A stretch of DNA of 21,778 nt from positions 1-21,778 of IMG/VR virus record IMGVR_UViG_3300042392_000623. The stretch is one strand, 5' to 3'. Positions 1-7,222 of this stretch are shown here, piece by piece (within the stretch, counting starts at the first letter, position 1; each line of letters opens with the position of its first letter). The notes under the pieces are model-generated. The model did not search any database. It was not told the origin of the DNA and saw nothing but the letters and a program-made list of their open reading frames with translations. Origin of the DNA: a virus. The position numbers and the translations under genes are program-made.

Positions 1-110
1 TACGCCACCCATTTCCCATCGTCGCGGCGCATTGTCTTGATTCCCTTCTTCTCCTGCCACTTTAGGCGAGGTGAAAGCTCTTCTGGCAGGTCGTTAAATA
101 GCAACTCCAT
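1..110 (-). CDS. Hypothetical protein, N-terminal part only (cut by window edge)
   Basis: An ATG on the minus strand at 110 opens 36 codons that run off the left edge without a stop. The visible protein starts MELLFNDLPEELSPRLKWQE and continues with a basic stretch (KKGIKTMRRDDGKW). It overlaps the 3' end of the 52-aa gene just upstream by 17 bases, a compact arrangement like the rest of this operon. There is no SD sequence before the ATG; the preceding bases are A/C-rich. I do not recognise the family. Reality is inferred from the open frame and the operon position. Confidence 0.5.
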   Translation of the reverse strand, partial: MELLFNDLPEELSPRLKWQEKKGIKTMRRDDGKWVA

Positions 111-252
111 ACTTGTTGACTAGGCGTTTGAGTGCTTCCATTAGTCCGCTCCTGCGATGCTTGGGCGATGCCAAGGCAGATATGAGGGACACGGTTAAAT
201 GCGGGTCGCTGCCAATGGCGCGAACGGGTTTGTAAATTTGTTTCAGTTTCAT
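94..252 (-). CDS. Small hypothetical protein, 52 aa
   Basis: A 52-residue frame starting MKLKQIYKPVRAIGSDPHLT and ending KRLVNKYGVAI. The protein is basic, with a central small-residue segment (SLISALASPKHRRSG) and a likely C-terminal helix. It starts 4 bases after the stop of the 68-aa gene at 257-463 and overlaps the next downstream start, so it fills what would otherwise be an unexplained gap in the operon. The leader ends AAAGAATAACACT before the ATG: A/C-rich, no SD, the same style as neighbouring starts. No family recognised. The tight fit between neighbours is the main support. Confidence 0.6.
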   Translation of the reverse strand: MKLKQIYKPVRAIGSDPHLTVSLISALASPKHRRSGLMEALKRLVNKYGVAI

Positions 253-256
253 AGTG

Positions 257-463
257 TTATTCTTTGATCGTGTTTAGTTCTTTTTTATCGCGCCAGACTT
301 CAAGCCCTCTGCCAGTATCCACAAGGGAGAAGTTGCATCCCCTCATGTCTCGCAGGACGGATCGAAGCCATCTCATTTCGTGTTCGTAGTCTTCTCTGTA
401 CGGGCGAGTAAGCGGGACATGACCCAGCTTCTGCGCCTCCATCGGTGTCAACATTTCAATCAT
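257..463 (-). CDS. Hypothetical protein, 68 aa
   Basis: Sixty-eight residues starting MIEMLTPMEAQKLGHVPLTR. The middle has charged, probably helical sequence (YREDYEHEMRWLRSVLRDM), followed by CNFSLVDTGRGLEVWRDKKE, which reads like a beta-hairpin. This is a plausible small alpha/beta domain of a kind common in phage early operons, but I cannot assign it to a family. The start has an A/C-rich leader (GATAACACTT) and no SD. It lies downstream of the SSB-like gene and upstream of the 52-aa gene, all leftward. Confidence 0.6.
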   Translation of the reverse strand: MIEMLTPMEAQKLGHVPLTRPYREDYEHEMRWLRSVLRDMRGCNFSLVDTGRGLEVWRDKKELNTIKE

Positions 464-533
464 AAGTGTTATCGGAAAGTGGTTTGCCCTGCGATGAACC
501 CTCGGGCCAAGGAATGGATACCCATCTTGTCAT
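456..533 (-). CDS. Possible 25-aa ORF between the SSB-like gene and the 68-aa gene
   Basis: An ATG at 533 opens a frame MTRWVSIPWPEGSSQGKPLS + DNTYD whose TGA overlaps the next ATG by 8 bases, the same overlap length seen at the 2826-2833 junction. It would fill the otherwise empty 89 bases between two operon genes. Against it: it is very short, there is no visible SD, and another frame (MGIHSLARG...) is also briefly open here. Treated as a weak candidate. Confidence 0.2.
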   Translation of the reverse strand: MTRWVSIPWPEGSSQGKPLSDNTYD

Positions 534-552
534 CACTCAAGATTCCCACATG

Positions 553-858
553 CTAAAAAGGTATTTCTGAATCCTCATCATCCCACTTGTCGGGGTGAAG
601 AGTCGCCTTGATCACGCTTGGCTTCTGTGCCTCCCAGTCGACGATCTTGCAGTTTCCGAGAATCGGACCTTTCTCTCCTGCGGCTTTGCGTTCTTTGCTG
701 ATCTTCTGGACTACGAAACCATCGTATCCGTACTTGTCCTTCTCCTCACGAATCAGAACCGTGACGGAGAGGTATTTCTTCCCGTTCTTTGGCGACTCAT
801 AGAGAGCGGTCTTGTCGATCTTCGTTGTATCCAGGCTAATGTCTATTGTTTGCTTCAT
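553..858 (-). CDS. Single-stranded DNA-binding-like protein with SSB-type acidic tip
   Basis: A 101-residue protein. Its N-terminal ~75 residues alternate hydrophobic and polar residues as expected of an OB-type beta barrel (KYLSVTVLIREEKDKYGYDG, then FVVQKISKERKAAGEKGPIL). The C-terminus is DKWDDEDSEIPF, closely resembling the bacterial SSB tail (DDDIPF in E. coli), which recruits replication and repair proteins. It is much shorter than bacterial SSB (about 170 aa), as phage SSBs often are. It starts 9 bases after the exonuclease stop in the same operon as RecT, so a role in coating DNA during recombination or replication is inferred. The leader (CAAATAACAATACACC) has no SD. The tail motif is seen directly; the OB fold is inferred. 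Confidence 0.72.
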   Translation of the reverse strand: MKQTIDISLDTTKIDKTALYESPKNGKKYLSVTVLIREEKDKYGYDGFVVQKISKERKAAGEKGPILGNCKIVDWEAQKPSVIKATLHPDKWDDEDSEIPF

Positions 859-867
859 GGTGTATTG

Positions 868-1677
868 TTATTTGATTGCCCACTTGGGGTATGAGAGTTC
901 TTGGATTCCTTCAACTGCCTTGGGGAAATACTTCTCCGAGATGCATTTCTGGTATTTAGCGATTGCGTTCATGTAACCCTCGCGGCCCAGCTTGATGAAG
1001 TCACCGGACAGGTTGACGATTGCGGTCTCATAAGGCGCAGATGTTTCGACAAAGGCAAGCACGAAATTCGTGCGCTCTAGCCCCGTGGCGGCATTGAACA
1101 TGTCCAAATAGACGGCAGCTTGCCAATGGTAGCCTCGGCGCACCACAAGGGACGCTAGGTCGTCAGCTTTGCCAATGCTCGAAGTGGTCTTGATGTCCAC
1201 CAAAGATTCCCCTGCCTGTGGCACTAGGTCAATCATCCCGCGCACCTTGGTTTCCCCGATCTGCGAGTAGACGGCAACCTCGGTCTTGTAGCCGGTGACA
1301 AATAGTGGCTGAAGGTCAAGGTCATTGAGGATCGACTCCGCGCATTCGTTGGCGGCGTTAAGCTGGGCCGGCGTGATGCAGACCTTCCCCTGTGCTACCA
1401 TCGAATCCCGCCATTCCTGCGCCGCTTTAGTACGGAATGAGTCGTATTCGCTAACGGCATAGGTTTCGGCGTACTCGGTGGGCGTGAGAGCAAGGCAATG
1501 CACGAGGCTTCCAAACTCCATCGCCGGCGTTGTCTCTTTCGGGCCGCTATGGAACCATTTCCAAGGACTTTGGTCGAACTCCCAGAGCATGCTTTTTGAC
1601 ACATACCCGCCCAAGTTGGAGGGGCTTGCGCCCCCCTCGTAATACTTGCGCCCTAAATTGTATACTAGATTACTCAT
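868..1677 (-). CDS. PDDEXK exonuclease, RecE/exonuclease VIII-like (DUF3799 type)
   Basis: A 269-residue protein with the hallmarks of the RecE C-terminal/DUF3799 nuclease family: GSLVH at residues 56-60, KTEVAVY at 131-137, VRGMIDLV at 145-152, VDIKTTSSI at 160-168 and YHWQAAVYLDM at 183-193. H60, D150, D161, K163 and probably E133 are the likely metal and catalytic residues (D...DxK core), and Q186 matches the trailing Q motif. The family resects double-stranded DNA ends to give 3' single strands, which the annealing protein encoded just upstream would use. It overlaps that RecT-like gene by 4 bases (ATGA). It has one of the few strong SD sites in the window (AAGGAGG, 7 bases before ATG), embedded in the last codons of RecT, suggesting coupled translation. 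Length is typical for a phage stand-alone version. Confidence 0.85.
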   Translation of the reverse strand: MSNLVYNLGRKYYEGGASPSNLGGYVSKSMLWEFDQSPWKWFHSGPKETTPAMEFGSLVHCLALTPTEYAETYAVSEYDSFRTKAAQEWRDSMVAQGKVCITPAQLNAANECAESILNDLDLQPLFVTGYKTEVAVYSQIGETKVRGMIDLVPQAGESLVDIKTTSSIGKADDLASLVVRRGYHWQAAVYLDMFNAATGLERTNFVLAFVETSAPYETAIVNLSGDFIKLGREGYMNAIAKYQKCISEKYFPKAVEGIQELSYPKWAIK

Positions 1678-2438
1678 GGTTCTACCTCCTTGGTCATTTT
1701 CTCGAATGCTTCTGCGATCTTGTCGGCGTGTGGCTTCGTGTTCCCCTTGGGCTTGTCCTCGACAACCTGTGCCTCGACAACCTCAACGGGTTCTGGCTCG
1801 GGTTCTGGTTCAGCCACGAATGGGTTTGCCTTTGGGGTCACATTGCGAGGTGGTTCGGCAAAGTCTCGCACCTCGTCCTGCGTGTACATGCCCAGCGACA
1901 TATCAGAGGCATAGGCGCGGCTCCAGAATGAAGCGGCGCGATAGCGGAGCATCTGTCCAGGCATCGTGAGCCACTTGCTTCCGTTCTTTGTTGACCAGCC
2001 TTCTTTCTTGGCCATCTCCAGCGTGATGCGCTCACCTTTGAGTTCCTCACCTGTTGCCATGTCCCGCGCAACAGCATAGCACCAAGTCGGGGCTTCGTCG
2101 CTATCGAACACAAAGCGCAGGGGCGAGAACTTCCCGCTTGCGTTGATCATGCCAATGAGCGCAGTAGCAGACCACGAAGGCCGCCCGTGAATGATGGCGA
2201 GGTTTTGGCATACCATCAAAACATCAAGCCGTGTCCGCTTTGATATGTTAAGAGCGATCGCGCAGTTGGCTACATTCCCCGCAAAGTCCTTGGGGACTAG
2301 GGTTGACTTGCTCAACATCATCGCTTGCCGTTGCACAAGCTCGAACGCCTGTGTCTCGGCCTGCACTTGGGCGAGAATGCCCGTGTTTTGTGCTTCCTGC
2401 GGCACAATCGCATCTTGTTTTGTTTCGTCGTTTTCCAT
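1674..2438 (-). CDS. recT: RecT-family single-strand annealing protein
   Basis: A 254-residue protein. The middle carries features of phage RecT-type annealing proteins: LSKSTLVPKDFAGNVANC at 42-59, LDVLMVCQNLAIIHGRPSWS at 71-90, and WLTMPGQMLRYRAASFW at 156-172 followed by GMYTQDEVRDF at 183-193. The C-terminal tail is variable, with a Pro-Glu run (PEPEPEP) around 211-217 and a charged helix. Such proteins anneal complementary single strands after exonuclease resection. Its partner nuclease follows with a 4-base overlap. An in-frame TTG at 2450 would add four residues and overlap the previous gene by 8 bases; I prefer the ATG at 2438 because it follows the previous stop cleanly. No SD precedes this ATG. 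Confidence 0.85.
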   Translation of the reverse strand: MENDETKQDAIVPQEAQNTGILAQVQAETQAFELVQRQAMMLSKSTLVPKDFAGNVANCAIALNISKRTRLDVLMVCQNLAIIHGRPSWSATALIGMINASGKFSPLRFVFDSDEAPTWCYAVARDMATGEELKGERITLEMAKKEGWSTKNGSKWLTMPGQMLRYRAASFWSRAYASDMSLGMYTQDEVRDFAEPPRNVTPKANPFVAEPEPEPEPVEVVEAQVVEDKPKGNTKPHADKIAEAFEKMTKEVEP

Positions 2439-2442
2439 AGTA

Positions 2443-2649
2443 TTAGGCAAAGTAAAAACCCACTTTGTTTTTCAGATCCTCATAGGCCTCGGCAAGTCTC
2501 CTTGCACCAGAAACCTTGAGGTAGTATATGATAGCCGCATCAGCATCGATGTGCGCAATCTCCCTGTCCGACCGTCTTCTGGTATGGAATGTGTCGATTT
2601 CCTCCAGCATGGCTAGAGCCTCTTCAATTTGTCGTTGGTTTGTTTCCAT
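2443..2649 (-). CDS. Hypothetical protein, 68 aa, mostly helical
   Basis: Sixty-eight residues starting METNQRQIEEALAMLEEIDT, with a helical, charged sequence throughout and ending KNKVGFYFA. The middle (RRRSDREIAHIDADAAIIYY) has mixed charge. No domain recognised. The gene overlaps the end of the helix-turn-helix gene by 26 bases and ends just before the RecT start, so it is co-transcribed with the recombination module. The leader (AACTAAACAAAATCGACG) is A/C-rich and lacks SD. Confidence 0.6.
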   Translation of the reverse strand: METNQRQIEEALAMLEEIDTFHTRRRSDREIAHIDADAAIIYYLKVSGARRLAEAYEDLKNKVGFYFA

Positions 2650-2833
2650 CGTCGATTTTGTTTAGTTCATTCAGCTGTTTTGCGATGTGCTTCCCCACCG
2701 CGATGGGATCGAATAAGGGCATTCCTTCCCTCATTACATGTGGAATATAGCCATCGGCGGCCCATAGGGCGACAACGGCTGGAGGCAGTTTTAAGTCATC
2801 TGCCATCTCATGCAAGCTAAAAAGTCTAATCAT
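2624..2833 (-). CDS. MerR/excisionase-type helix-turn-helix protein
   Basis: Sixty-nine residues from the ATG at 2833. Residues 3-50 (LFSLHEMADDLKLPPAVVAL, then WAADGYIPH and PLFDPIAVGKHI) match the pattern of a MerR-like or excisionase winged-helix: a first helix with a DNA-reading turn, a W...GxIP wing entry, then a final hydrophobic segment. Such proteins bind DNA as recombination directionality factors or small regulators. An in-frame ATG at 2947 would give 107 residues but overlaps the upstream gene by more than 120 bases. The start at 2833 gives an 8-base overlap and an A/C-rich leader (AAAGAAAAACACC) typical of this operon. No integrase is visible in the window, so excisionase is only one option. 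Confidence 0.6.
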   Translation of the reverse strand: MIRLFSLHEMADDLKLPPAVVALWAADGYIPHVMREGMPLFDPIAVGKHIAKQLNELNKIDDGNKPTTN

Positions 2834-3119
2834 GGTGTTTTTCTTTATTGGTTCCAGTAAATGCCAAGAAGTCCCAAGGGGTGAATGGCCCAGTCCTGTT
2901 TTTTCGGTGTTCTTCGTAGGCTTCGGTTTCTTTCTTTTTGTAGGCATCGAGCCTCCGTGCTGTCATTTCAAACATTGACAGAAGATATTTATTTTCTGCC
3001 ATGAGTTCGGAAACCTTGTCTTCGAGGTCGGCTTTCGTGATGCGTCTGCGTCTCACGCTATTTTTTCTTTTGGGGTTTCTTCTTCCATAGGGGCTTCGCT
3101 TATTAGGCGTTGGAGGCAT
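2826..3119 (-). CDS. Hypothetical basic/coiled-coil protein, 97 aa (or 76 aa)
   Basis: The first 28 residues are strongly basic (RSPYGRRNPKRK, VRRRRIT). They are followed by a likely coiled coil (KADLEDKVSELMAENKYLLS onward, heptad-like leucines) and a polar tail ending NKEKHHD. The basic region could touch nucleic acid (inference). The ATG at 3119 overlaps the DnaA-like gene by 67 bases. A GTG at 3056 would overlap it by just 4 bases (GTGA) and give 76 residues, which fits the coupling style of the operon equally well. The true start is therefore uncertain. Family unknown. Confidence 0.55.
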   Translation of the reverse strand: MPPTPNKRSPYGRRNPKRKNSVRRRRITKADLEDKVSELMAENKYLLSMFEMTARRLDAYKKKETEAYEEHRKNRTGPFTPWDFLAFTGTNKEKHHD

Positions 3120-3409
3120 TCGCGCACTTTGTCTGCGAATCGATCGTCATGCTCGATAAGGAACCTAACGCGCTCCCGTGCATGCATGACCGCGCCGTGG
3201 TGTCGGTCGAGCCTGTAGCCTGTTTCCTGCAATGAATGGTTTTCGCTCCAAATGGTTGCCACAAGTTGCCTAGGCTCCACCCACCGCGCAAAGCGTGAGC
3301 GGCAAAGGATTTGTTCTGGAGTGACGGAAAAGACCTCGGCAACAATGCGAACGAGGAAAGCGAACTTGTCCGCTTCTGTGTCCTCATAGAGTTTCCAATT
3401 TACTTTCAC
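3053..3409 (-). CDS. Stand-alone DnaA domain IV-like DNA-binding protein
   Basis: A 118-residue protein starting with GTG. Residues 18-85 follow the pattern of the DnaA C-terminal DNA-binding domain: IVAEVFSVTPEQIL at 22-35, a basic loop RSRFARWVEPRQL at 37-49 (R47 and Q48 match the conserved RQ pair), NHSLQETGYRL at 57-67, and DRHHGAVMHARERV at 68-81 in place of the signature RDHSTVLHA. The AAA+ ATPase part of DnaA is absent, so it cannot act as a full initiator. It could bind DnaA boxes, modulate host DnaA, or act as a regulator (inference). The GTGA overlap with the upstream membrane-protein gene and a G-rich SD-like tract (AAAGGGGGTG) suggest coupled translation. The C-terminal tail (EAPMEEETPKEKIA) is acidic and probably disordered. 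Confidence 0.7.
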   Translation of the reverse strand: MKVNWKLYEDTEADKFAFLVRIVAEVFSVTPEQILCRSRFARWVEPRQLVATIWSENHSLQETGYRLDRHHGAVMHARERVRFLIEHDDRFADKVRECLQRLISEAPMEEETPKEKIA

Positions 3410-3597
3410 GCCGCACCCCCTTTCGGGTTGTTGTCCTCATGGATCACATAGGCCGCCCAGACTGCCACAGATAGCAGGGACGATCCGTAGAATGCCCACA
3501 TTTTCCACTTTGTCGGGGCTTCAAAGAGGCTGTCCACGAAAAGGAACAGAAACAGATGGCCGAATATAGCCAAGGCCAAGATCATTTGCTTTTTCAT
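3406..3597 (-). CDS. Small membrane protein, two predicted transmembrane segments
   Basis: Sixty-three residues with two hydrophobic stretches, about 4-24 (QMILALAIFGHLFLFLFVDS) and 33-52 (MWAFYGSSLLSVAVWAAYVI), joined by a short polar loop (EAPTKWK) and ending in a polar tail (HEDNNPKGGAA). This would be an inner-membrane hairpin. A holin-like or membrane-anchoring role is possible, but holins usually sit in late operons near an endolysin, and no endolysin is adjacent. It overlaps both neighbours by 4 bases and is preceded by an SD-like GGAAAGG. Function unknown. Confidence 0.6.
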   Translation of the reverse strand: MKKQMILALAIFGHLFLFLFVDSLFEAPTKWKMWAFYGSSLLSVAVWAAYVIHEDNNPKGGAA

Positions 3598-3818
3598 GCC
3601 GCCGCCTTTCCGTTTGACCTTTCAATTCTGCGGCAATGGCGAAGCATCTTGGCAACCTCTCGCCGCTCGATGCTCACCCCGTAGCACCCGACCATTAGCG
3701 AGGCATAACGCCCCCACGGGTCGCGATTTGTGATAAGATGTATCCTCTCATTAAATGCAGGGCTTGCCATTTGGTAGTCATGCCGTGCGCCGTCTCGTTT
3801 TGCTTTTTCAAGTGTCAT
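3594..3818 (-). CDS. Hypothetical protein, 74 aa
   Basis: From the ATG at 3818 the protein starts MTLEKAKRDGARHDYQMASP and ends with a very basic helix (REVAKMLRHCRRIERSNGKA). A TTG at 3857 would extend it by 13 residues into the preceding gene; I prefer 3818 because the bases before it form the A/C-rich repeat leader (AAACG)3, the style seen at other starts after a gap. The family is not recognised. Its stop overlaps the membrane-protein start by 4 bases. Confidence 0.55.
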   Translation of the reverse strand: MTLEKAKRDGARHDYQMASPAFNERIHLITNRDPWGRYASLMVGCYGVSIERREVAKMLRHCRRIERSNGKAAA

Positions 3819-3841
3819 TTTCGTTTCGTTTCGTTTGTGGT

Positions 3842-4150
3842 TTATTCCATACTCCAATCGTCAACTGGCGGGTCGATACGTTTTCGCCCCCATAGCGTCT
3901 CCAATCGGTGCAAGTCGATGCCAAGGCAAGCCAAGACATCAGCGAAGGTTTCCGCATCGATGTTGCAAAGCGCGGCCTTGTCGTTTGCGTGGTACTCCAT
4001 GAGCAACGGAAATTGGTCGGCATCATCCATTTCGGCTATATCCTCCGCCGCTTTTTGGATGCACTCCAATACCCAGGGCGCGTCATCCGTGGACACCCCA
4101 TCGCGCATGATCGCCAGCAGGGCATTATTCTCCCATTGTGGTCGGCTCAT
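3842..4150 (-). CDS. Hypothetical acidic protein, 102 aa
   Basis: One hundred and two residues, starting MSRPQWENNALLAIMRDGVS and ending DPPVDDWSME. It is acidic, rich in Asp/Glu in the segment IQKAAEDIAEMDDADQF, and probably all-helical. No recognised domain. It overlaps the upstream gene by 4 bases (ATGA) with a G-run (AAAGGGGGGCGG) in SD position, so it is likely translated by coupling. Function unknown. Confidence 0.6.
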   Translation of the reverse strand: MSRPQWENNALLAIMRDGVSTDDAPWVLECIQKAAEDIAEMDDADQFPLLMEYHANDKAALCNIDAETFADVLACLGIDLHRLETLWGRKRIDPPVDDWSME

Positions 4151-4362
4151 TCCGCCCCCCTTTCAAATTGAATCTCGCCAAGTTTCCACTTGAGTCCTTG
4201 AAGTTCCGCCTTGAGTTTCTCAATCTCGCCGGTTCTTTTTTTGTTTCCTTCAATTGACGGAAATTCAATCACGCGCCAGGTGTGAGACACGATCTCTTGG
4301 TTTATGCGATGCATCCTCGCGGTAATGACATCTTCCGTCATTGGTTCCGTTTCTGTTTTCAT
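4147..4362 (-). CDS. Hypothetical helical protein, 71 aa
   Basis: Seventy-one residues starting MKTETEPMTEDVITARMHRI. The second half is a likely coiled coil (TGEIEKLKAELQGLKWKLGE, leucines in heptad spacing), suggesting oligomerisation. Start leader: AACCCGCCGAAACT, without SD. It lies 18 bases after the stop of the acidic 122-aa gene and overlaps the following gene by 4 bases. No family recognised. Confidence 0.6.
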   Translation of the reverse strand: MKTETEPMTEDVITARMHRINQEIVSHTWRVIEFPSIEGNKKRTGEIEKLKAELQGLKWKLGEIQFERGAE

Positions 4363-4380
4363 AGTTTCGGCGGGTTATGA

Positions 4381-4749
4381 TTAGAAGCAAGGCACAATCA
4401 CGCCACCCTCGAATTCGATGGCGGGTTCCGCGTTTTCGAAGATGTAGTGGCGAATGGCGGCATCTATTGTTTCCTCGTCTTCCTCGAATTCGTCGCGGCT
4501 CATGACCAGGTTCAGCCCTAGTTTTTCCGCCGCATCTTCATGGTCGCGAAAGCAGTCTTCTGCCCAGTGGGTCAGACTTCCATATTCGCTCCACTCGCAT
4601 CGTATATCTGTGACGCTTAAAACAGCATCATCGGGGCTGTTTTCATCTAGGAAACTGGCGAGTGCCAAGGCTCCATTTGCGCTCCAATTTGCGTCCTCAT
4701 CGGCGCGGAGTGCGTTTGCAATGTCGTATTTCGTGAGGTTCATTTTCAT
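4381..4749 (-). CDS. Highly acidic phage protein, 122 aa, unknown function
   Basis: From the ATG at 4749 (MKMNLTKYDIANALRADEDA) to the end EFEGGVIVPCF. By hand count about 29 acidic against 8 basic residues, so it is strongly negative. The N-terminal half (YDIANALRADEDANWSANGA, then IRCEWSEYGSLTHWAEDCF) and the terminal E-F-x-G-G-V-I-V pattern resemble small hypothetical proteins I know from many phages. Acidity is compatible with DNA mimicry or anti-restriction activity (ArdA-like proteins are similarly acidic), but no catalytic or diagnostic motif supports this. A TTG at 4854 would extend the frame through a Thr repeat encoded by (AAC)9; I regard that as leader, not protein. The next ATG at 4743 is also possible. 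Confidence 0.65.
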   Translation of the reverse strand: MKMNLTKYDIANALRADEDANWSANGALALASFLDENSPDDAVLSVTDIRCEWSEYGSLTHWAEDCFRDHEDAAEKLGLNLVMSRDEFEEDEETIDAAIRHYIFENAEPAIEFEGGVIVPCF

Positions 4750-4780
4750 CGTTGTTGTTGTTGTTGTTGTTGTTGTTGTA
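4750..4780 (-). repeat. (AAC)9 trinucleotide repeat leader
   Basis: On the plus strand this is GTT repeated nine times (4751-4777); on the coding strand it reads TAC(AAC)9G directly before ATG. It lacks U and G almost completely, so it cannot fold, and it replaces an SD site. Unstructured CAA-type leaders are known to favour ribosome entry; that role here is inference. Copy number could vary between isolates. Confidence 0.8.
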
Positions 4781-4790
4781 GTCTCATCAG

Positions 4791-4822
4791 TACCAGCATT
4801 ACTGGTAGACCGCTCACGCGGT
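4791..4822. promoter_or_regulatory. Two adjacent short hairpins upstream of the (AAC)9 leader
   Basis: TACCAG-catta-CTGGTA (4791-4807, stem 6, loop 5) is followed immediately by ACCGC-tcac-GCGGT (4809-4822, stem 5, loop 4). They lie in the 123-base gap between the 47-aa membrane gene and the acidic-protein gene. They could be a terminator or attenuator, an RNA processing site, or operators. There is no T-run directly after either on the minus strand, so a simple intrinsic terminator is unlikely. Confidence 0.4.
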
Positions 4823-4872
4823 TTCGACTTGAAGATATGCACAGCTGTTGGCAATGCAAGCGGATTTGTGAT

Positions 4873-5016
4873 TTATTTTTGGAGGTTCAAAGGCTCACTA
4901 GCACGCACGCGCGTCTCGATGTCACTAGGCCCGCCGAAGGCTCCGCTTGTCACGGCGATGGCAAGGGCAAGGCAAAGCACAAGGGCAAGGGCAAGGAATA
5001 GGTTGGATAGTTTCAT
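4873..5016 (-). CDS. Small membrane or exported protein, 47 aa
   Basis: A 47-residue frame starting MKLSNLFLALALVLCLALAI and ending RVRASEPLNLQK. Residues 5-22 are a continuous hydrophobic segment behind a Lys, as in a signal peptide or single membrane anchor. A possible cleavage region is AVTSGA. The short tail is polar. The ATG overlaps the upstream stop by 4 bases (ATGA), the junction type common here, which is good support despite the small size. No SD is seen. Function unknown; a spanin-like or superinfection-exclusion role would be speculation. Confidence 0.6.
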   Translation of the reverse strand: MKLSNLFLALALVLCLALAIAVTSGAFGGPSDIETRVRASEPLNLQK

Positions 5017-5285
5017 GCGTCAAAAGGAATGATTGTGAGCTTGCAGTCATGTTCAGCGGCATAGTCATGCGCAAATTCTGAATCCCATTCAGTCCCAATG
5101 TAATCACCATCGTGCGTTTCCAATAGGTACTTGCAAGGGTATGGCGGCAACATCGGAAGCGGTTGGACTAGGTGAGGCTTCCCGCTCATGCGAAACCCCG
5201 CATTCATGCGGACAACCTTGGCGCGGTTTACCTTTGCTAATTGGAATGCCTTTATTTCTACTTGTGCTAATTGGTACGCGTTCAT
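5013..5285 (-). CDS. Hypothetical protein, 90 aa
   Basis: From the ATG at 5285: MNAYQLAQVEIKAFQLAKVN, then a Pro-rich centre (VQPLPMLPPYPCKYLL) and a C-terminal domain GDYIGTEWDSEFAHDYAAEH ending TIIPFDA. A strong SD-like tract (AAAGGGGGAGG) precedes the ATG, and the ATG overlaps the upstream 48-aa gene by 4 bases. A longer frame back to a TTG at 5387 exists but would overwrite that gene. No family recognised; the C-terminal half looks like a small globular domain. Confidence 0.6.
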   Translation of the reverse strand: MNAYQLAQVEIKAFQLAKVNRAKVVRMNAGFRMSGKPHLVQPLPMLPPYPCKYLLETHDGDYIGTEWDSEFAHDYAAEHDCKLTIIPFDA

Positions 5286-5428
5286 GCCTCCCCCTTTCTG
5301 ATTGCATCCAAACGCTTTTCCGCCGCTTCTCGCGTTTTGAATAAGCCAGAAACCGCGACGATTTCCCATCTCCAATTTGTGTCCCAAATTTGGAATTTGC
5401 CCTTTGTTTTGACTATGAACATGCTCAT
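5282..5428 (-). CDS. Small hypothetical protein, 48 aa
   Basis: Forty-eight residues: MSMFIVKTKGKFQIWDTNWR, WEIVAVSGLFKTREAAEKRL, DAIRKGEA. The sequence looks like a compact beta-beta-alpha domain: two Trp-rich strands, then an amphipathic helix with the common phage pattern FKTREAAEKRL. It overlaps both neighbours by exactly 4 bases (ATGA at each end) and has an SD-like GGAAGGGAG 6 bases upstream. A larger overlapping frame obscures it. Confidence 0.7.
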   Translation of the reverse strand: MSMFIVKTKGKFQIWDTNWRWEIVAVSGLFKTREAAEKRLDAIRKGEA

Positions 5429-5646
5429 GCCACGCTCCCTTCCATGATTGCGTTCACGACTCCACGCTGTTCCGTGAGTTGGTTAATCGAGGTGGGCTCA
5501 CCATGAACCTCCCGAACGAACGCTGTTATTGTTGGTCGGTCTTTGTGGTAGATACGCCCTAGGTCAATCAATTCACGGAGGGTCAAACCCGTCCAGTTTT
5601 TATGTTCCATCGTTGCTTCAATCATCGTTTTTTGTGTCGTTGTCAT
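5425..5646 (-). CDS. Hypothetical protein, 73 aa
   Basis: Seventy-three residues starting MTTTQKTMIEATMEHKNWTG, followed by LTLRELIDLGRIYHKDRPTI and ending VVNAIMEGSVA. It is probably a small helical protein; the segment TLRELIDLGRIYHKDRPTITAF could be a helix-turn-helix-like pair, but the match is weak. The leader before ATG is repeat-like (CCAAACCAAACCAACGACGA), A/C-rich and without SD. The stop overlaps the 48-aa gene by 4 bases. Function unknown. Confidence 0.55.
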   Translation of the reverse strand: MTTTQKTMIEATMEHKNWTGLTLRELIDLGRIYHKDRPTITAFVREVHGEPTSINQLTEQRGVVNAIMEGSVA

Positions 5647-5853: not shown

Positions 5854-6350
5854 TTTGTATCGTGGTGGTTTGGTTATTGTTGTTGGCCTGCCTTGTCTGC
5901 TGGCAACGGAATCAATCTAGAACATGGCAGAAAGATTGCCAACAAAAAATGCCAACAACCTAAAAATATATTTCAACAATTCATCGAAATAAGATTGACA
6001 AGCCATCAAACCCTTAAAAACAAGGCATTCCCAACAATCACAAGCAAGGAACAAATTTCATGGCCACAAGGAAACTTTCAACCACTAGGACAACCAAACC
6101 GCTAGGGAACCAAGCTTCAGAGCGTCTAGACATTCCCTTTAGGCTCTAGGTGATTCAATTAAGCGGAGAGAGAAGCAGAAGCAAAGGGAATAGGATAGCG
6201 TCATCAGAATATCACAGACCCATTGGGAAACCCGTTCACCTATTGAAGAAAAGCAATCACCGCGCTTGATGCTTTAAGCAAAGCTTCATGTCTTGACGCG
6301 TCGCACGATCTCCTATGGTCGATCGGCTTTGGCTTTCGGAATGCACAGCA
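5854..6350. other. Non-coding leader/regulatory stretch before the leftward operon
   Basis: About 500 bases without a convincing gene. It lies between a sigma70-like leftward promoter and the first leftward gene. It holds three copies of GCCAACAA/TTGTTGGC (5880-5958), an inverted repeat AGGGAA/TTCCCT (6104-6109 with 6133-6138) and a small hairpin GCTTT-aagc-AAAGC (6271-6284). A 31-codon minus-strand ORF (6038-6133, MSRRSEAWFPSGL...) and a 70-codon plus-strand frame opening with TTG at 5893 exist but look accidental. No tRNA seen. Confidence 0.5.
5880..5958. repeat. Three copies of an 8-base operator-like repeat (TTGTTGGC/GCCAACAA)
   Basis: TTGTTGGC at 5880-5887 on the plus strand and its complement GCCAACAA at 5938-5945 and 5951-5958. 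The last two are direct repeats with a 13-base period (TGCCAACAA core). They lie 30-105 bases upstream of the first leftward gene, a normal operator or activator position, but no regulator can be matched to them. Confidence 0.4.
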
Positions 6351-6768: not shown

Positions 6769-6844
6769 TGTTCCACAAGGTCAGCGTGGAACACAAGTCA
6801 ACGGACATTGGCACTGCTGTACATGTTCCACGGGAATGTTCCAC
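6769..6844. repeat. Four copies of TGTTCCAC (parS half-site-like)
   Basis: TGTTCCAC at 6769-6776, 6824-6831 and 6837-6844, plus the inverted copy GTGGAACA at 6786-6793. The first and the inverted copy form an 8-base inverted repeat around a 9-base spacer; the last two are direct repeats with a 13-base period. The unit equals one half of the bacterial ParB site (TGTTCCACGTGAAACA in Bacillus), but no complete site is present. Operators for a phage regulator are the simpler reading. Confidence 0.55.
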
Positions 6845-6892
6845 GCACCAGTCTAATACCTTACTAATCCACTACAGATTGTGCGCTCTAAC

Positions 6893-6976
6893 ATTAGCGC
6901 GTCACTCATGAATCCGGCGCTGATCACGCGAACACTGGCCAAGCGAACACCAGGCTAATCATTAGCGCCACGCTAA
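6893..6976. repeat. Cluster of direct and inverted repeats (ATTAGCGC, GCGAACAC)
   Basis: ATTAGCGC at 6893-6900 and 6961-6968. GCGAACAC at 6928-6935 and 6943-6950 (15-base period). A palindrome GCTAAT-c-ATTAGC at 6954-6966 runs into a hairpin TTAGCG-cca-CGCTAA at 6962-6976. Such density suggests an iteron-like origin or an operator array for the divergent region. Confidence 0.5.
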
Positions 6977-6984
6977 GGTATGAC

Positions 6985-7042
6985 GGGGGGAGGGGGTCGA
7001 CCAGCGAAATGTTTTTATCATTGCTATCCATACCCCCCCCCC
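6985..7042. other. Long G and C homopolymer tracts
   Basis: GGGGGGAGGGGG at 6985-6996 and a run of ten C at 7033-7042, 36 bases apart and mutually complementary. They could pair into a long stem, or the G side could form a four-stranded structure. Homopolymers of this length are rare in the rest of the window. The exact run length may also be affected by sequencing error. Confidence 0.5.
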
Positions 7043-7084
7043 AGAAAAATTGTTACAATGGGGCAGTTCCCGTTCGGGGTTATT

Positions 7085-7093
7085 TGTGGATAG
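7085..7093 (-). promoter_or_regulatory. Near-consensus DnaA box
   Basis: TGTGGATAG is one base from TGTGGATAA, the complement of the DnaA box TTATCCACA. It sits in the repeat-rich intergenic region. I saw no second good match, so its use is uncertain; the phage's own DnaA domain IV-like protein makes it worth noting. Confidence 0.35.
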
Positions 7094-7145
7094 GTCTAGT
7101 GTATTGTGCCTAAATGTGCTAGATAGGTAACATTTGTGTTTATGG

Positions 7146-7175
7146 TTGACATTATGTGTGGGATTGTGGTAATTG
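7146..7175 (+). promoter_or_regulatory. Candidate rightward late promoter
   Basis: Perfect -35 TTGACA (7146-7151), 18-base spacer, weak -10 TAATTG (7170-7175). It would start transcription about 40 bases before the first late gene. The -10 is poor, so a phage-controlled or activator-dependent promoter is possible. Confidence 0.4.
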
Positions 7176-7222
7176 GTTGGTTGAGCGCGAGATGGACTTG
7201 TGCTTGATAACTTATTTATATT

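Follow-up and report, generated by a model that had tools for sequence, protein, structure and literature searches.

Domain IV of the replication initiator DnaA suffices on its own for sequence-specific binding to duplex DNA (PMC5835720). Stand-alone genes for this domain (hereafter, dnaA-IV, encoding DnaA-IV) are widespread in phages and several are already annotated, among them those of Sulfitobacter phage phiGT1 (gp62), Rhizobium phage RHph_N28_2, and Microcystis phage Mae-JY35. Like the protein described here, which is one more of them, the annotated proteins are domain IV alone, mostly of about 90–190 aa, with Aurantimonas phage AmM-1 carrying the domain within a larger 396-aa protein. 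Structural matches include dozens of proteins titled 'DnaA C-terminal' in uncultured Caudovirales, as well as proteins of a Tenacibaculum phage and a crAss-like virus, and literature searches on stand-alone DnaA-IV in phages returned nothing on function and no study. An isolated domain IV binds DNA and lacks the parts for ATP binding, oligomerization, DNA melting, and helicase recruitment. A described system of analogous logic would be the O/P pair of lambda, a DNA-binding protein and a helicase loader encoded in one early cluster; in the phage group analyzed here, however, the genes are not adjacent, no iterons were found, and the folds differ, so that the comparison is one of analogy only.

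We analyzed a linear phage fragment of 21,778 bases that makes up an entire IMG/VR record (hereafter, the window). An earlier note had proposed that it encodes a stand-alone DnaA domain IV without the ATPase, to be checked by an HMM search with Bac_DnaA_C (PF08299) and by overlay of a predicted structure on the E. coli domain. Both analyses bear the proposal out, and the gene product is confirmed as DnaA domain IV without the remaining DnaA domains. Bac_DnaA_C matches residues 20–81 of the 118-aa protein (8.5e-10, 39 bits, exceeding the gathering cut-off of 31.5 bits), and phmmer against the PDB recovers E. coli domain IV (1j1v) at 1.3e-3. The AlphaFold model (pLDDT 88.3, pTM 0.81) is predicted to adopt the domain IV fold, as its top solved matches in Foldseek are DnaA DNA-binding domains only (3pvp and 1j1v; target TM 0.88–0.89, rmsd 1.0–1.2). 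The AAA+ and N-terminal domains of DnaA are absent from the protein, which reaches 39 of the 344 bits required by the DnaA initiator family TIGR00362 and aligns to model positions 351–436 only. Fold, helix order, the RQ pair, and the equivalents of R399, H434, and H439 are those of chromosomal DnaA, whereas the protein stands alone, lacks domains I–III, and has H, G, and A for E. coli D433, T435, and T436. The domain occupies approximately residues 18–102 and is followed by an acidic, disordered tail (105–118). Translation starts at a GTG at 3409 (ATG in the majority of relatives read), preceded by a GGGGG/GGAGG-type ribosome site.

Table 1. Features of the window discussed in the text.
Feature	Position	Strand	Evidence
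SSB-like 101-aa protein, C-tip-like end DDEDSEIPF	553–858	-	sequence
RecE/exonuclease VIII-like nuclease (DUF3799)	868–1677	-	phrog_412 4.5e-56, Pfam 9.6e-29
RecT-type single-strand annealing protein	1674–2450	-	phrog_561 3.8e-66, Pfam RecT
Small MerR/excisionase-like helix-turn-helix protein (from MIRLFSLHEM)	2624–2833	-	weak HTH matches
Stand-alone DnaA domain IV protein, 118 aa	3053–3409	-	Pfam, phmmer vs PDB, AlphaFold + Foldseek, dN/dS
63-aa ORF with two hydrophobic stretches, probable small membrane protein	3406–3597	-	sequence
Conserved intergenic block with TTGACA promoter-like element, before late genes	7057–7222	+	conservation in relatives
Two one-mismatch DnaA-box-like sites, CTATCCACA (7085–7093) and TTAGGCACA (7105–7113)	7085–7113	-	weak candidate sites

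The gene is present in 22 relatives at 86–99% identity and in one more distant phage (L100) at 70%. Across relatives its dN/dS is 0.02–0.08 at dS 0.5–1.6, which indicates strong purifying selection and hence a working gene. The protein shares only about 25% of residues with E. coli domain IV, as might be expected of a generic helix-turn-helix that is alike by chance or of a decaying remnant; we give this reading next to no credence, and it is already refuted by the Pfam score above cut-off, by top structural matches that are DnaA only, and by the low dN/dS, which holds at dS of up to 1.5.

In the phmmer alignment R39, R47, Q48, H71, and H76 align with E. coli R399, R407, Q408, H434, and H439, the box-reading residues of the 1j1v structure. 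All five are invariant in 17/17 aligned close-family sequences, and each of these sequences retains the RQ pair of the basic loop, as the earlier note had remarked, and reads RHHGAV or RHHGAI instead of RDHTTV. The signature replacement pointed out in that note is therefore real, but the shifted specificity that it suggested is weakened by comparison with DnaA of the likely host phylum. The host is probably a member of the Verrucomicrobiota, as indicated indirectly by relatives of the window terminase, which occur in 11 of 338 genomes from this phylum (that of Haloferula luteola) and in none of 349 from the Pseudomonadota (that of a Caulobacterales MAG); the best genomic relative lies inside a prophage-like stretch whose structural genes are similar. 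At the T435 position, five of 16 Verrucomicrobiota DnaA proteins have G, ten have A, and one has T, and the D433 position is often N; all ten Pseudomonadota DnaA sequences read RDHTT. Because Gly or Ala at the T435 position is normal in the likely host phylum (15/16), the Gly does not by itself demonstrate a phage-specific change. The His at the D433 position is the sole unusual change, and could alter base reading.

Phage groups differ in this signature: most annotated phage proteins read have the RDH[TSA]T type, and the window group has RHHGA. A group of T7-like, marine-type phages (L024, L038–L040, L103–L108) carries dnaA-IV ahead of the gene for a T7-type RNA polymerase; T7-like phages with dnaA-IV encode their own RNA polymerase and a T7 gp4-like protein. 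The DnaA-IV proteins of these phages share with the window protein a Gly at the T435 position (in all read; position 433 varies among D, H, and C) and, in L024, an identical RHHGAVMH, but overall identity is about 25–30% and long branches in the tree leave their joint placement unsettled. In several temperate phages dnaA-IV adjoins DUF1376, replisome organizer, or primase genes. An apparent DnaA-IV gene also lies behind MuA/MuB-like genes in what appears to be a Mu-like phage (L113, about 6000–6300), a type that needs no origin of its own. Phage domains do not form one clade in the tree, and one of them joins proteobacterial DnaA with high support. The window group forms a separate long branch, in a tree that has few columns and weak resolution; within that limit, recent capture of the domain from a host is not supported. 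No relative turned up in a first scan of bacterial genome contigs that used the close family as query. Further short bacterial ORFs (92–220 aa), and one at G032 C5:84175–84363, have weak similarity to DnaA-IV and are perhaps prophage copies.

In the window, dnaA-IV sits in an early operon with the RecT, exonuclease, and SSB-like genes (Table 1). The gene immediately upstream is the probable membrane protein ORF, for which a Pfam scan found no family above cut-off. The link between the two drawn by the earlier note holds insofar as the 4-base overlap (3406–3409) is real and was counted, from coordinates, in 18 of 22 relatives, but it is not universal: about 200 bases separate the genes in L016–L018, and both are rearranged in L022. 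The MerR/excisionase-like gene comes after dnaA-IV and is conserved in relatives, and the SSB-like protein matches phrog_24909 (function unknown) at 2.3e-8. Two relatives, G001 and G002, have a 127-base direct overlap of their ends and, with a length of about 39 kb, probably represent whole genomes. In both, the minus-strand arm runs on beyond what the window holds: the membrane ORF, dnaA-IV, the small helix-turn-helix protein, RecT, the exonuclease VIII-like nuclease, and the SSB-like protein are followed by a RuvC-like resolvase, an HTH_39 protein of winged-helix type, a ribbon-helix-helix-like protein, and a DnaC-like helicase loader (phrog_50 7.4e-41; NCBIfam DnaC 8.6e-18). By the phrog_50 match, complete relatives encode a helicase loader, as a lambda O/P-type system would require, on the dnaA-IV strand and about 6–7 kb downstream, which is outside the window fragment. 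The ribbon-helix-helix-like gene (L025:1262–2184) overlaps the loader by 4 bases and is conserved in the relatives checked. In one relative (G003/L033, contig 3300020043_003188), the first 5.4 kb or so (1–5450) are a partial duplicate in inverted orientation that includes a second copy of dnaA-IV; this is likely an assembly chimera.

The earlier note had suggested that the protein might mark the phage origin and had pointed to 6890–7100 for a binding assay; a phage origin in this region is not supported by the DNA sequence. Exact DnaA boxes number zero in the window and one to three in each larger relative; near-matches number 11 in the window vs 19 expected, i.e., fewer, and in relatives are not enriched and tend to fall below shuffles. 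Box clusters and conserved iterons were sought in the window and its relatives and none was convincing, so that a DnaA-box-rich origin was not found. What this search yielded is one weak pair of near-boxes (Table 1), 20 bases apart and upstream of the conserved TTGACA element. The pair is retained in about half of 19 aligned blocks (window counted), missing from four relatives, and enlarged to five near-boxes in G002. Its nominal P in the window block is 0.04, a value in which the many places scanned are uncounted and for which the relatives are not independent. The distance from near-boxes to promoter differs between relatives by insertions of tens of bases.

Of the readings considered, we lean slightly toward DnaA-IV as a putative competitor for DnaA boxes at host sites, tentatively and at somewhat less than even odds. 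A domain IV detached from its ATPase and expressed early by the phage would bind DnaA-box-type sites on the host chromosome, for example at oriC and at DnaA-controlled promoters. Without AAA+ and N-terminal domains it would occupy these boxes with no initiation complex assembled; host DnaA would be outcompeted and host initiation slowed or re-timed, as the phage draws on the replisome of the host. Fold and family, the equivalents of R399, R407, Q408, H434, and H439 retained in 17/17 sequences, and a T435 change that agrees with DnaA of the likely host phylum are consistent with such a role. Since the phage genomes have no DnaA-box enrichment, they offer no obvious location for the targets, and the presence of DnaA-IV in T7-like, Mu-like, and temperate phages with unlike replication agrees better with a common target on the host side than with a common kind of phage origin. 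Together, the unlike replication systems, reading residues near those of host DnaA, and the lack of clear phage sites are the reason for this slight preference. Against the competitor reading, dnaA-IV beside replication genes in several temperate phages suits phage initiation, the His for Asp433 could change base reading, and the host phylum is assigned by indirect evidence.

A possible but less probable explanation is that DnaA-IV marks a phage origin at which the separate DnaC-like AAA+ protein loads host DnaB, in a division of labor like that of lambda O and P. The loader is on the same strand and is conserved together with dnaA-IV in 5/5 near-complete relatives, as well as in L100 (70% identity); no polymerase, primase, helicase, integrase, or DUF1376-type initiator was recognized among the G001 genes scanned. 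Phage C75C1, whose terminase is 44% identical, has no DnaA-IV and instead encodes a 'replication initiation protein' (not a DnaA-IV homologue, as PF08299 gives no match) and a DnaB-like helicase. The two near-boxes would also suit an origin, but they stand without a convincing cluster or iterons, the loader is touched by the ribbon-helix-helix-like gene rather than by dnaA-IV, and stand-alone DnaA-IV is found in Mu-like and T7-like phages too. The ribbon-helix-helix-like protein is a rival candidate for the origin-binding partner, and the more obvious one. The stronger form of the idea, a split initiator in which DnaA-IV and the loader jointly take the place of DnaA at the phage origin and bring in host DnaB, we regard as unlikely. 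Similarly doubtful is that DnaA-IV regulates transcription near divergent promoters, binding at the near-boxes that precede the TTGACA late promoter so as to time early and late expression. Full-length DnaA also acts as a transcription factor, the near-boxes do precede a conserved promoter-like block, and the T7-like phages carry dnaA-IV upstream of their RNA polymerase gene. However, the shifting distance between near-boxes and promoter, the several relatives without boxes despite invariant reading residues, and the weak statistical support argue against it.

Stand-alone DnaA-IV recurs in phages of quite different replication systems. If it outcompetes host DnaA, it would represent a general means of controlling host initiation; if it marks phage origins, a DnaA recognition domain would be functioning without its motor.

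A separate repeat, TGTTCCACR, occurs four times at 6769–6845 of the window (0.37 expected) in a fixed geometry with the second copy inverted. The array is common to about nine relatives and missing in the rest, and its presence does not track that of three neighboring small genes. Many relatives with identical reading residues lack the array, and for this reason it is not supported as a target of DnaA-IV. The repeat matches the DnaA box at 7/9 bases, and resembles a parS half-site.
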